Assembly (NCBI GenBank): GCA_016208255.1
Contig: JACQYK010000208.1
Span: 1-34,302, forward strand
Direction: 5' to 3'
Length of the DNA: 34,302 nucleotides
Source of the DNA: Deltaproteobacteria bacterium
GTDB lineage: Bacteria; Desulfobacterota; RBG-13-43-22
The translations under genes and the position numbers were made by a program. Below are positions 14,442 through 32,786 of the stretch, one piece after another (within the stretch, counting starts at the first letter, position 1; each line of letters opens with the position of its first letter). The notes beneath the pieces are model-generated. The model was given only the letters and a program-made list of their open reading frames with translations, ran no database searches and was not told where the DNA came from.

Positions 14442-14521
14442 CAAGGTTTAAGGTATAAGGTCCAAGGTGTAAGGTAAATCATGAAGAGATTTTTAACCTT
14501 TAACCTTAAACCTTGTACCTT
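14442..14521 (+). repeat. Palindromic element with heptamer-repeat arms (AAGGTNN)
   Basis: The left arm, 14443-14477, is five direct copies of a 7-nt unit: AAGGTTT, AAGGTAT, AAGGTCC, AAGGTGT, AAGGTAA. The right arm, 14494-14521, is four copies of the complement: TAACCTT, TAACCTT, AAACCTT, GTACCTT. The stretch 14442-14454 is an exact 13-bp inverted match to 14503-14515. The 16-nt spacer contains ATGAAGAG. It fills the recO-glyQ gap and ends 6 nt before the glyQ ribosome site, so folding could affect glyQ translation. Confidence 0.85.
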
Positions 14522-14536
14522 TTTTCAGGAGGTTTT

Positions 14537-15412
14537 GTGCTTACCTTTCAAGAATTAATCGAAGCTTTGAATGGCTATTGGGCCGACCAGGGCTGTCTGC
14601 TTCTTCAACCTTACGATCTGGAAGTTGGGGCCGGGACTTTTCACCCGGCCACTTTTCTGCGGGTTCTGGGACCGGAGCCGTGGAAGGCCGCCTATGTGGA
14701 GCCTTCCCGGCGCCCGACCGACGGCCGGTATGGAGAAAATCCAAACCGGTTACAATGCTTTTACCAGTATCAAGTCATCCTTAAACCTTCCCCCCTGGAT
14801 GTTCAGGATCTGTATCTGAAAAGCCTGGCAAGCTTCGGTATCCAACCCTTGGAACACGATTTGCGCTTTGTGGAAGACGATTGGGAGTCCCCGACCCTCG
14901 GCGCGTGGGGGCTGGGCTGGGAGGTCTGGCTGGATGGAATGGAAATCTCGCAATTTACTTACTTTCAACAATGCGGGGGTATCGATCTTTCCCCCATATC
15001 GGTGGAGCTGACCTACGGCCTGGAACGGATTGATATGTATCTCCAGGAAAAGGACAATGTCTATGATCTGAAATGGAACAATCAGATTTCCTATGGTGAA
15101 ATCCATCATCAGGATGAGTTTGAGTTCTCTACCTATAATTTCGATCAAGCGGACGTGGCCCAGTTGCGAACCCTTTTTCAATCTTATGAACAGGAAAGCA
15201 AGAGACTCGTCACTTTGAAACTGCCCCGGCCGGCCTATGATTTTTGCCTCAAATGCTCCCATGTGTTTAATCTCCTGGATGCCAGAGGGGCTATTAGTGT
15301 CACGGAAAGAACCGGATATATCGGCCGTGTTCGGGATTTGGCCCGGGCCGTAGCCAGGGAATACCTGACCCAAAGGGAGGCGATGGGCTTCCCTTTATTA
15401 AAAAATCAGTAA
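14537..15412 (+). CDS. glyQ: Glycyl-tRNA synthetase alpha subunit
   Basis: This is the 291-residue catalytic subunit of the two-subunit alpha2beta2 bacterial GlyRS. Recognisable segments are the N-terminal [50 protein letters not shown] and the C-terminal [22 protein letters not shown] stretch. The start is GTG at 14537, with AGGAGG (14528-14533) just upstream. The frame opens further left at 14513, but that part lies in the repeat element. The beta subunit follows after a 230-nt gap that holds a second repeat element. Confidence 0.96.
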
Positions 15413-15414
15413 CC

Positions 15415-15604
15415 GTTCAGCCACTAAGACACGAAGGCGCAAAGAAGGGATATGAATTTTAAACTCTTATCAGAAAGAGAAGAATGGATTGCTGAAAGAA
15501 TTGTGGAGGCCGCCCATACAGAACACATCATTTCGAATGGCATCAAGAGACTTATCCCCTGCAGGTCCGCAGTCCTTTGTGGCTTGGTGACTTGGTGGCT
15601 GAAC
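15415..15604 (+). repeat. Element with inverted 30-nt octamer-repeat arms
   Basis: The arm 15415-15444 matches the reverse complement of 15575-15604 at 25 of 30 positions. Beyond the shared outer GTTCAG, each arm is three copies of an 8-nt unit of form NCACNAAG: CCACTAAG, ACACGAAG, GCGCAAAG on the left, and CCACCAAG, TCACCAAG, CCACAAAG on the complement of the right arm. Between the arms lies a short ORF that looks like a decayed GxxExxY gene. It separates glyQ from glyS. Confidence 0.8.
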
Positions 15605-15616
15605 TATTACTGTTAA
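15452..15616 (+). pseudogene. Truncated GxxExxY-like ORF
   Basis: A 54-codon frame starts at ATG 15452 with AAGAAGGGA just upstream. Its first 23 residues (MNFKLLSEREEWIAERIVEA followed by AHT) resemble the start of GxxExxY proteins, which continue with a V-H-x-x-L-G-P-G-L-x-E-x-x-Y core. Here the match ends at that point and the frame runs through Cys/Trp-rich, unlikely sequence into the right repeat arm. I read it as the 5' end of a gene that has lost its body. The assignment rests on recalled family sequence. Confidence 0.4.
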
Positions 15617-15644: not shown

Positions 15645-17729
15645 ATGGAACAGGATCTGTTACTTGAAATCGGAACCGAAGAAATACCCGCCCGCTTTAT
15701 ATCCGGGGCTTTGGAAGCTCTTAAAAATTTGGCCCGGGAACGATTTCAACAAAGCCGTCTTCAATACCGGGATATCAAGACCGTCGGTACACCCCGAAGA
15801 TTGACCCTTTTAGGTTCTGGAGTTTCTCCTTTCCAGGACGACAAAGAAGAAAACATTATGGGGCCCCCGAAATCTTCGGCCTTTGATAGGGACGGCCTTC
15901 CCACTAAGGTTGCCCTGGGTTTTGCCAAAGCCAAAGGGGTCGGGATTGAAAATCTTGAATTCTTTGAAACTCCTAAAGGGGTTTATCTCGGCCTGAAAAA
16001 AAAGGTTCGGGGTCTTCCAGCCGTTGGGGTGTTAGCCGAACTCCTCCCTCAATTGATTTTAGATCTGCCTTTCCCTAAGTTCATGCGCTGGGGCACTTCC
16101 AGCCTTCGATTTGCCAGGCCCATCCATTGGATCGTCGCCCTCTTCGGGGAGCAGGTAATCCCCTTTGTCTTAGGAGGAATCGAGTCAGGAAACCAAACCG
16201 CCGGTCATCGTTTTATGGCTCCTAAGACCATACCCCTCAGGGAGGCCGGAGAATATTTATCAAAGCTTAGACAGGCCATGGTCATTGCCGACCCCCAAGA
16301 ACGGGAAGACCGGTTACGTTCGGCCATTAGCGGTTTGGCGGAAAAGGCCAAAGGAAAGGTTTTGACCGATTCTGAATTAATACAGGAGGTTAATTTTCTT
16401 GTTGAATTTCCCGATCCGGTTTCCGGAGGATTTAATCCTGAATTTCTAAAATTACCACCCGAAGTTCTGATCACTTCCATGAAAGAACATCAGCGCTATT
16501 TCCCGATGGTAGACGAACAGGGAAATCTACTTCCCGGTTTCATCGCCGTAAACAATACACAGGTAAAGGATACCCAGCGAGTGGTGAGGGGCCATGAAAA
16601 GGTTCTTCGAGCCCGTCTGTCTGATGCCCGGTTTTTTTTCGAAGAGGATTTGAAAAAACCTCTGTCTGAAAGGGTTGAAGGCCTAAAAGCCGTTGTATTT
16701 CATTCCCGGCTGGGGACTTCTTTTGAAAAGGTTGAACGGATCGTCAGATTGGCCGCCGCTCTTGCCCGAAAACTGGCACCCGAAAAAGAAGCCATGGTCA
16801 AGCGATGCGCCTTTTTATGCAAAGCCGACTTAATTTCTCTGATGGTGGGAGAGTTTCCGAACCTTCAAGGGATTATGGGCCGGGAATATGCTTTACGATC
16901 CGGGGAAGAGGAAGAAACGGCTCGAGGAATTTTTGAGCACTATCTCCCGGTTTCAGTGGGCAGTCCGATGCCGGAGACAATAACCGGGACCATCGTTGGT
17001 CTGGCTGATCGACTGGATACGCTCACTGGATTTTTCGGCCTGGGTCAAATCCCCTCTGGTTCGGCCGATCCTTACGCCTTACGCCGCCAGGCGCAGGCCG
17101 TAATCCAGATCATCTGGAACAAAGGGTATTCATTGTCTATAAATGAAGCCCTGGATCAGGCTTTAATCCCCTATACCGGATATATTAAGGAAGATCCCGG
17201 ATCAATCAAAAAAAACCTTTTGGCCTTTTTGGTCCTGCGTTTACAACATTTGTTGGAAGTGGAAGAAGGAGCCGGACAGGAAACCGTTCAGGCCGTTATC
17301 GCTGCCGGATGGGATGATGTTGATGAAGTAAGGGACCGAGTCCTGGCCCTGCAGGCCTTTCAAAGTCATCCGGATTTTCCCTCACTGGTTATAGGTTGCA
17401 AGAGGGCCTTAAATATCTTAAAAGGGGTATCGCCTTCTGATATCGGAGAGGTCCATGTTGAATGGTTAGTTGAGCCTGAGGAAAAGGAACTGTTTGAAAA
17501 AGTAGATCAAAAGAAGGTCGAAATTGATCGTTTTTTCAGACAAAAAGAATACTCCGATTATCTCCTCCATCTGGCCCAACTGCGTCCGACCATTGATGTT
17601 TTTTTTGATAAGGTCTTGGTCATGTCCCCGGATGAAAGAATCAGGAAAAACCGCCTGGCGTTATTGTTTCAGTTGACCGCCCTCTTCAGCCGGTTCGCTC
17701 TATTTTCCCAATTTGATGCTTTATTGTAA
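15645..17729 (+). CDS. glyS: Glycyl-tRNA synthetase beta subunit
   Basis: This 694-residue beta subunit of GlyRS is recognised by the N-terminal LLLEIGTEEIPARFISGALE, KFMRWGTSSLRFARPIHWIVAL, the HD-like middle and FFGLGQIPSGSADPYALRRQA, and ends with a DALR-type anticodon-binding region. The frame opens at ATG 15621, but the second ATG at 15645 gives the N-terminus seen in homologues (MEQDLLLEIGTEE). AGAGG lies 13 nt before it, rather far. It follows glyQ on the same strand across the octamer-repeat element. The length is normal. Confidence 0.95.
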   Translation: MEQDLLLEIGTEEIPARFISGALEALKNLARERFQQSRLQYRDIKTVGTPRRLTLLGSGVSPFQDDKEENIMGPPKSSAFDRDGLPTKVALGFAKAKGVGIENLEFFETPKGVYLGLKKKVRGLPAVGVLAELLPQLILDLPFPKFMRWGTSSLRFARPIHWIVALFGEQVIPFVLGGIESGNQTAGHRFMAPKTIPLREAGEYLSKLRQAMVIADPQEREDRLRSAISGLAEKAKGKVLTDSELIQEVNFLVEFPDPVSGGFNPEFLKLPPEVLITSMKEHQRYFPMVDEQGNLLPGFIAVNNTQVKDTQRVVRGHEKVLRARLSDARFFFEEDLKKPLSERVEGLKAVVFHSRLGTSFEKVERIVRLAAALARKLAPEKEAMVKRCAFLCKADLISLMVGEFPNLQGIMGREYALRSGEEEETARGIFEHYLPVSVGSPMPETITGTIVGLADRLDTLTGFFGLGQIPSGSADPYALRRQAQAVIQIIWNKGYSLSINEALDQALIPYTGYIKEDPGSIKKNLLAFLVLRLQHLLEVEEGAGQETVQAVIAAGWDDVDEVRDRVLALQAFQSHPDFPSLVIGCKRALNILKGVSPSDIGEVHVEWLVEPEEKELFEKVDQKKVEIDRFFRQKEYSDYLLHLAQLRPTIDVFFDKVLVMSPDERIRKNRLALLFQLTALFSRFALFSQFDALL

Positions 17730-32699: not shown

Positions 32700-32786
32700 G
32701 GCTATAGGCAAGAGGCTATAGGCCATGGGAAAATCGATATCCATAAACTTCTTCCCTATTGCCCATAGCCCATAGCCTATCGCCCC
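32700..32786 (+). repeat. Palindromic element with heptamer-repeat arms (GGCNANN)
   Basis: The left arm, 32700-32727, is four 7-nt units: GGCTATA, GGCAAGA, GGCTATA, GGCCATG. The right arm, 32754-32781, reads CCCTATT, GCCCATA, GCCCATA, GCCTATC. Aligned as a palindrome, 21 of 29 positions match. A spacer of about 24 nt separates them. It lies between the two CoA-transferase genes and is built like the element before glyQ, though the unit sequence differs. Confidence 0.8.

Follow-up and report, generated by a model that had tools for sequence, protein, structure and literature searches.

Miniature inverted-repeat transposable elements (MITEs) have been described in prokaryotes, for example Chunjie in Geobacter uraniireducens and QMITE2 in Coxiella (PMC10969869). 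In Geobacter metallireducens, paired tandem-repeat sites, including three-unit pairs of TCTCCGTS[Y], are predicted to be sites of a global regulator (PMC2700814). GxxExxY is a widespread protein family that is named only for its motif and has no assigned function; it appears in a passage on a CRISPR-associated reverse transcriptase (PMC8934634). By title, we found no literature linking GxxExxY, PDDEXK_3 or PF13366 to inverted arms, most subscription papers and all bioRxiv preprints lying outside the scope of this search. Here we describe a 202-nt insertion between glyQ and glyS in a Deltaproteobacteria bacterium (assembly GCA_016208255.1; Desulfobacterota). It lies in a stretch of 34,302 nt, hereafter the window (contig JACQYK010000208.1; G000:C172), from a genome (G000) of 6.35 Mb that is 96% complete and 7.5% contaminated. 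With a probability of roughly 70%, we read this insertion as a copy of a GxxExxY element that is non-autonomous and has lost part of its interior, likely placed by such a nuclease from another copy.

The insertion between glyQ and glyS

The whole element (15409..15610, + strand) is a MITE-like deletion derivative, as argued below, and is bounded by terminal inverted repeats, GTAACCGTTCAG on the left (15409..15420, +) and, as written on the + strand, CTGAACTATTAC on the right (15599..15610, − strand), which agree at 10 of 12 positions. The left end, as GTAAC.GTTCAG, stands at the same place in two larger relatives, L043 and L116, and the right end is the same in L116 and in several copies in G000. 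Inside the ends lie the arms, each with three NCACNAAG units: CCACTAAG, ACACGAAG and GCGCAAAG on the left (15421..15444, +) and, in inverted order, CCACCAAG, TCACCAAG and CCACAAAG on the right (15575..15598, −). A repeat search returned this pair as 15407-15444 and 15575-15612 (38 nt, 82% complementary), the longest of 23 inverted pairs that it listed in the window when the arms could be up to 400 nt apart. The preliminary description had placed inverted arms with three units each and 25 of 30 inner nucleotides matched in the span 15415..15604; these arms were found again, and the element proved slightly wider. With at most one mismatch allowed, the three-octamer pattern occurs 26 times in G000 (15 forward, 11 reverse), and 20 of these matches fall into ten convergent pairs. 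The reversed pattern does not occur at all, and the arms are therefore not a product of chance. Folding of the element transcript was far below that of shuffled sequences (z −5.6), and a long hairpin is predicted.

The left end of the element adjoins the codon CAG of glyQ (14540..15412, +) and provides its stop codon, TAA (15410..15412, +); GlyQ of two genus mates is two codons longer and ends in QEA or QER before the stop. On the other side lies glyS (15646..17729, +), whose start was set by comparison with G001 and G002. In four family members (G001-G004) the glyQ-glyS junction is empty and without arms, which agrees with the earlier statement that the element splits the two genes and is the outcome of the check suggested there, a search for an empty junction in close relatives. 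The extent of 202 nt is based on these empty junctions, on ends and arms as in copies elsewhere, and on the alignment to L116. The comparison shows 12 junctions, with L066 and L070 mis-placed and L073-L086 outside those shown. A CAC-rich, arm-like stretch was also seen 3' of glyQ in G012 (L072), where an element may have inserted independently at this end of the gene.

The 130-nt interior between the arms holds a 54-aa open reading frame (ORF; 15452..15616, +) that runs into the right arm. We compared the interior, stripped of its arms, with L116 at the DNA level and obtained two matching blocks. Interior positions 6-81 (15450..15525, +) correspond to the 5' end of the GxxExxY gene, with 81.6% identity to L116 1463-1538 (E 6.8e-16), and positions 84-111 (15528..15555, +) to its 3' end, with 85.7% identity to L116 1842-1869 (E 0.002). 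Among 50 shuffled interiors, none matched L116 at E 0.01. In L116 the two blocks are separated by 303 nt, which include a short fold-back insertion of that copy. In the translation, residues 1-25 resemble the start of the GxxExxY gene and residues 26-35 its end, in frame. Since the start is joined in frame to the gene end, about 95 codons, or some 300 nt of the gene, are absent, including the motif and the nuclease core. The absent stretch holds GxxExxY, D, ExK and Q. In alignments of 25 and of 62 proteins these are invariant, and the window ORF has none of them.

The first 23 residues had been called GxxExxY-like, with the likeness lost thereafter; the first part of this claim stands, and in place of the loss we found the jump to the C-terminus of the family. 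A profile built from full-length GxxExxY relatives ranked the ORF first among 649 window ORFs (E 0.0036, residues 1-26). The ORF had no match in Pfam and only an unrelated match below the cut-off in NCBIfam, and it fails the curated cut-off of TIGR04256 / PF13366. The identity of the ORF came from other copies in the same genome, which hold pieces of both ends of the GxxExxY gene. Judged from these alignments, the ORF is an in-frame internal deletion of a GxxExxY gene, not the result of simple decay.

Full-length relatives, shortened copies and target duplications

Larger copies with the same ends and arm type as the window element were found in other genomes, in line with the earlier suggestion to look for full-length copies with such arms. 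L043, in a genome of the same phylum (G051), is intact, with termini GTAACTGTTCAG and CTGAATAGTAAC, CACNAAG arms and a 130-aa ORF. Its protein matches PF13366 above the cut-off (E 2.3e-38) and retains D, ExK and Q, invariant residues with a catalytic role in PD-(D/E)XK enzymes; it is predicted to be a nuclease of the PD-(D/E)XK superfamily. L116, from a metagenome-assembled genome labelled Desulfobacteraceae, is near-full-length, with termini nearly those of the window element and CACNAAG arms of two units on the left and three on the right. Its ORF is broken near the end by the fold-back insertion. L115 also has a fold-back palindrome at this place near the GxxExxY C-terminus, breaking the frame there too (about 1815-1835 in both loci); this looks like a copy-back event.

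Short copies form a nested deletion series, separately in G000 with its genus mate G001 and in the distant G051, and copies elsewhere lack more, or other, parts of the gene than the window copy does. In G000 and G001 we read by eye at least six deletion junctions, two of which recur at different sites (C31_36k and C109; C88, C46, C163 and C31_48k). In G051 one junction is common to six short copies (L245, L246, L247, L252, L253 and the inner copy of L250, which sits inside a full-length, itself damaged copy); L248 and L249 retain more of the gene. Since the same junction occurs at different sites, the shortened forms were most likely themselves copied to new places. Shortened GxxExxY copies also occur with a second class of arms, CGCAGAT (L005, L260). 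The L005 copy (1460-1640) lies between an inverted, not a direct, repeat (CTCCTTTTTTAATT / AATTAAAAAAGGAG), and one copy in G000 (L023, 1540-1690) contains a nested second repeat element with the ends GTCATTCCCG / CGGGAATGAC.

Many copies are flanked by short direct repeats. We tested 26 copies, with ends set by hand, a slip of 1 nt allowed and controls treated likewise; the end anchors were chosen after the duplications in G051 had been noticed by eye. In 16 of the 26, the flanking 8-mers differ at no more than one position, compared to 1.5% of mispaired flanks, and none of 5000 permutations did as well. Flank identity across the copies was highest at length 8. Copies with at least 7 of 8 matches make up 9 of 11 in G051, 4 of 11 in G000 (the window copy being one of the 11) and 2 of 3 in G001, to which L116 (7/8) is added; in G051, the full-length copy that is interrupted by another reaches 8/8. 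At the orthologous sites of copies C46 and C88 in G001 and G002, divergence was too high to read a target duplication. IS200/IS605-type elements are not known to make a target duplication, and the 8-bp duplications of the CACNAAG family speak against this identity. The GxxExxY origin, the shared ends and the copies at many sites support the initial view of a short-arm mobile unit that carries a small ORF, and by sequence the window element is a MITE-like derivative of a mobile element whose only recognised gene encodes a PD-(D/E)XK protein.

Inverted arms around GxxExxY genes in other genomes

We next consider how general the association is. Among 59 genomes, G000 included, GxxExxY is present in 20, exact CACNAAG arms in 9 and both in 8 (Fisher p 0.0004, with the kinship of the genomes ignored). 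The arms form 13 adjacent convergent exact pairs, and what lies between them does not exceed 401 nt, a length reached by the pair around the GxxExxY gene; the outer pair of G051:C210 spans more (531 nt) and surrounds an interrupted GxxExxY gene. This pairing considered adjacent pairs only and used 66 of the 69 matches, the single match of G017 and two overlapping ones being set aside. We then scored the flanks of the best 80 of 576 GTDB GxxExxY loci, a sample that covers many phyla and is biased to the subfamily of L043. The inverted-flank score was above every shuffle in 67 of 80 loci, compared to 0 of 25 glyQ loci; in a harder cross-locus control, 54 of 80 were above the 95% level and 29 of 80 above the 99% level. 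The flank controls are single-letter shuffles; two loci were omitted as too short, L210 from the 30 four-helix-bundle loci and one from the 26 glyQ loci. Recognisable tandem units were present in 64 of the 68 loci with a score of at least 18. In another set of 31 loci, 23 of 27 usable ones reached this score (L053, L003, L004 and L058 were lower; L056 was too short and L040, L042 and L049 were mis-placed).

The arm units differ among loci (CACNAAG, CGCNAAG, CACNGAG, CGCNGAG and others). Mapped on the protein tree, the arm unit requires 24 changes, whereas shuffles within phylum require 34.6 on average (minimum 29); for the AAG/GAG core the count is 7, compared to 15.9 (minimum 10). In both cases none of 300 shuffles did as well. 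A test of arm against protein distances points the same way (rho of 0.18 across phyla, with p 0.001). Phylum labels were set by hand from record titles in the distance test and taken from the taxonomy in the tree test, and the tree is weakly resolved, only 6 of its 77 inner branches being starred. It is thus the protein tree that the type of unit tracks, and not the phylum of the host. Distant GxxExxY proteins are present in seven plasmid records, and five GxxExxY loci lie on viral contigs. The GxxExxY profile had no match among PDB sequences. PADLOC and PHROGs gave no match for L043, and L002 had weak Cas4-like and other matches. VIA named no transposase among the 50 matches listed, which excludes nothing.

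The window also has two heptamer elements, both without a gene. One lies just upstream of glyQ (14443-14522), with inverted heptamer arms AAGGTNT (4.9 and 4.4 units) and a 15-nt gap, and has 62 match rows in G000, with the query itself and two-strand doubles counted; the other (32703-32785) has inverted GGCTATA units. It had been proposed that such heptamer elements are the same class after loss of cargo. We found no support for emptied GxxExxY elements, as heptamer arms go with four-helix-bundle genes instead: the flanks of these genes (L199-L228) are mostly tandem heptamers when read by eye, and G000 has 14 matches to TIGR02436. No target duplication was apparent in eight heptamer elements of G000 (6.4, compared to 6.3 in controls), and 22 four-helix-bundle loci showed no excess (0, compared to 0.135 in controls). 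An Rfam scan of the window at the gathering score returned nothing except one tRNA gene (2718-2791, −).

Candidate mechanism, rival explanations and known systems

The GxxExxY protein likely helps such elements to move. It would bind the tandem octamers, cut the ends of the element and make a staggered cut of 8 bp in the target, and short copies that keep their ends would be moved in trans. A further and more tentative suggestion, which we regard as somewhat doubtful, is that GxxExxY elements are a new class of transposon. Such a class would combine a single PD-(D/E)XK enzyme of 120-130 aa with arms of three tandem 8-9-nt units, an 8-bp duplication and MITEs mobilised in trans; it would occur in bacteria and in some archaea, and the enzyme would evolve together with its arm units.

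Several observations weigh against placement by a GxxExxY nuclease. The role of mover is a prediction from sequence. None of the four GxxExxY genes above the cut-off in G000 is intact with these arms. Six of the 26 arm matches there (C35, C105, C296, C352) belong to another element family, also present in G001, and inspection of its interiors revealed no visible GxxExxY remnant. This second CACNAAG-arm family (L017, L021, L030 and L031 in G000; L256-L259 in G001) has a conserved interior resembling GGGCTTAATTTCATGAGGG. G017 has one arm match but no GxxExxY. Four-helix-bundle / 23S intervening-sequence genes (TIGR02436) have inverted flanks above the shuffled maximum in 26 of 29 loci, and such arms therefore need no nuclease gene. 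The window copy and the intact L043 have 4/8 matching flank positions each, that is, no target duplication. The inner copy of L250 has 2/8; placing its left end 2 nt further inward gives the 7-nt GCGAACT as a flanking duplication. Among 70 GTDB GxxExxY loci with arms, none has 8/8, and the fraction with at least 7/8 is 0.19, compared to 0.12 in controls, with no clear excess. Finally, arms and protein would covary even without binding if the whole element were passed on as a single unit. Much of this would suit a passenger role for GxxExxY, with a transposase or host machinery in trans that recognises the ends, duplicates 8 bp and moves full-length and short copies. The inverted tandem-unit flanks of four-helix-bundle genes, the state of the GxxExxY genes in G000 and the second arm family speak for this, and 8-bp duplications are common among DDE transposases. 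A common mover acting in trans is possible. We nevertheless consider a passenger role unlikely. In G051 (82% complete), 15 of the 16 exact termini lie in GxxExxY elements and the remaining one has no partner on its contig, so that no second kind of element with these ends was found among them. In addition, GxxExxY is under strong purifying selection (22 of 45 gene pairs listed, 7 with saturated synonymous divergence, dS), and the arm type tracks the protein tree across phyla.

The remaining explanations are less probable still. The strong folding of the transcript would fit an element that acts at the RNA level, like the intervening sequences (IVS) of 23S rRNA, with arms that pair in the transcript, processing by RNase III and spread via RNA copying or recombination; in the Coxiella IVS, inverted repeats form the ends and tandem heptamers precede the ORF (PMC4990558). 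This is improbable for a copy that lies between glyQ and glyS, outside rRNA, in a family whose 8-bp target duplications suit insertion of DNA. The proposal made for Geobacter metallireducens, that a global regulator binds at such paired sites, is already disfavoured here and seems very improbable: the layout there is very similar, with opposite-strand pairs of three tandem TCTCCGTS[Y] repeats in the sections consulted (PMC2700814), but the elements here have GxxExxY remnants within short copies, target duplications, a copy nested in another copy and absence from the orthologous junction. A chance inverted repeat next to a random ORF might be considered, as the profile match of the ORF and the match of its C-terminal block are each weak when taken alone; against the pattern counts in G000, the two-block DNA match and termini common across genera, its probability is close to nil. 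We therefore retain an internally deleted GxxExxY element as the reading of the insertion.

In conclusion, the element shares features with several known systems. With MITEs it has in common a length below 500 bp, multiple copies, many of them truncated, terminal inverted repeats, stable predicted hairpin transcripts and an internal deletion from a gene-bearing element. Younger MITE copies have direct repeats, and so do 16 of 26 copies of the family described here, whereas the window copy itself scores 4/8. MITEs are taken as derivatives of transposase elements; here the one gene recognised in the parent encodes a GxxExxY protein of the PD-(D/E)XK type, and each arm consists of three octamers in tandem (PMC10969869). 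Like the 23S rRNA IVS with an S23 / four-helix-bundle ORF, it has a small ORF inside inverted repeats, and those IVS have tandem heptamers, another protein family and an rRNA location, as far as the relevant passage describes them (PMC4990558). The GxxExxY remnant between glyQ and glyS does not fit membership in that group. The GxxExxY family (TIGR04256, PF13366 PDDEXK_3) is the source of the remnant, although the window ORF is without its motif and invariant core. The link to inverted-arm mobile elements gives this family a likely role, and it predicts an enzyme-arm pair that is open to laboratory testing. It also offers an explanation of multicopy paired tandem-repeat sites formerly taken as regulator sites. 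Those of Geobacter metallireducens differ in that the text sections on them mention neither a GxxExxY gene nor a target duplication; they are alike in their opposite-strand pairs of three tandem units and their heptamer and octamer classes, and TCTCCGTS[Y] is complementary to ACGGAGA-type units, like some of the arms described here (PMC2700814).
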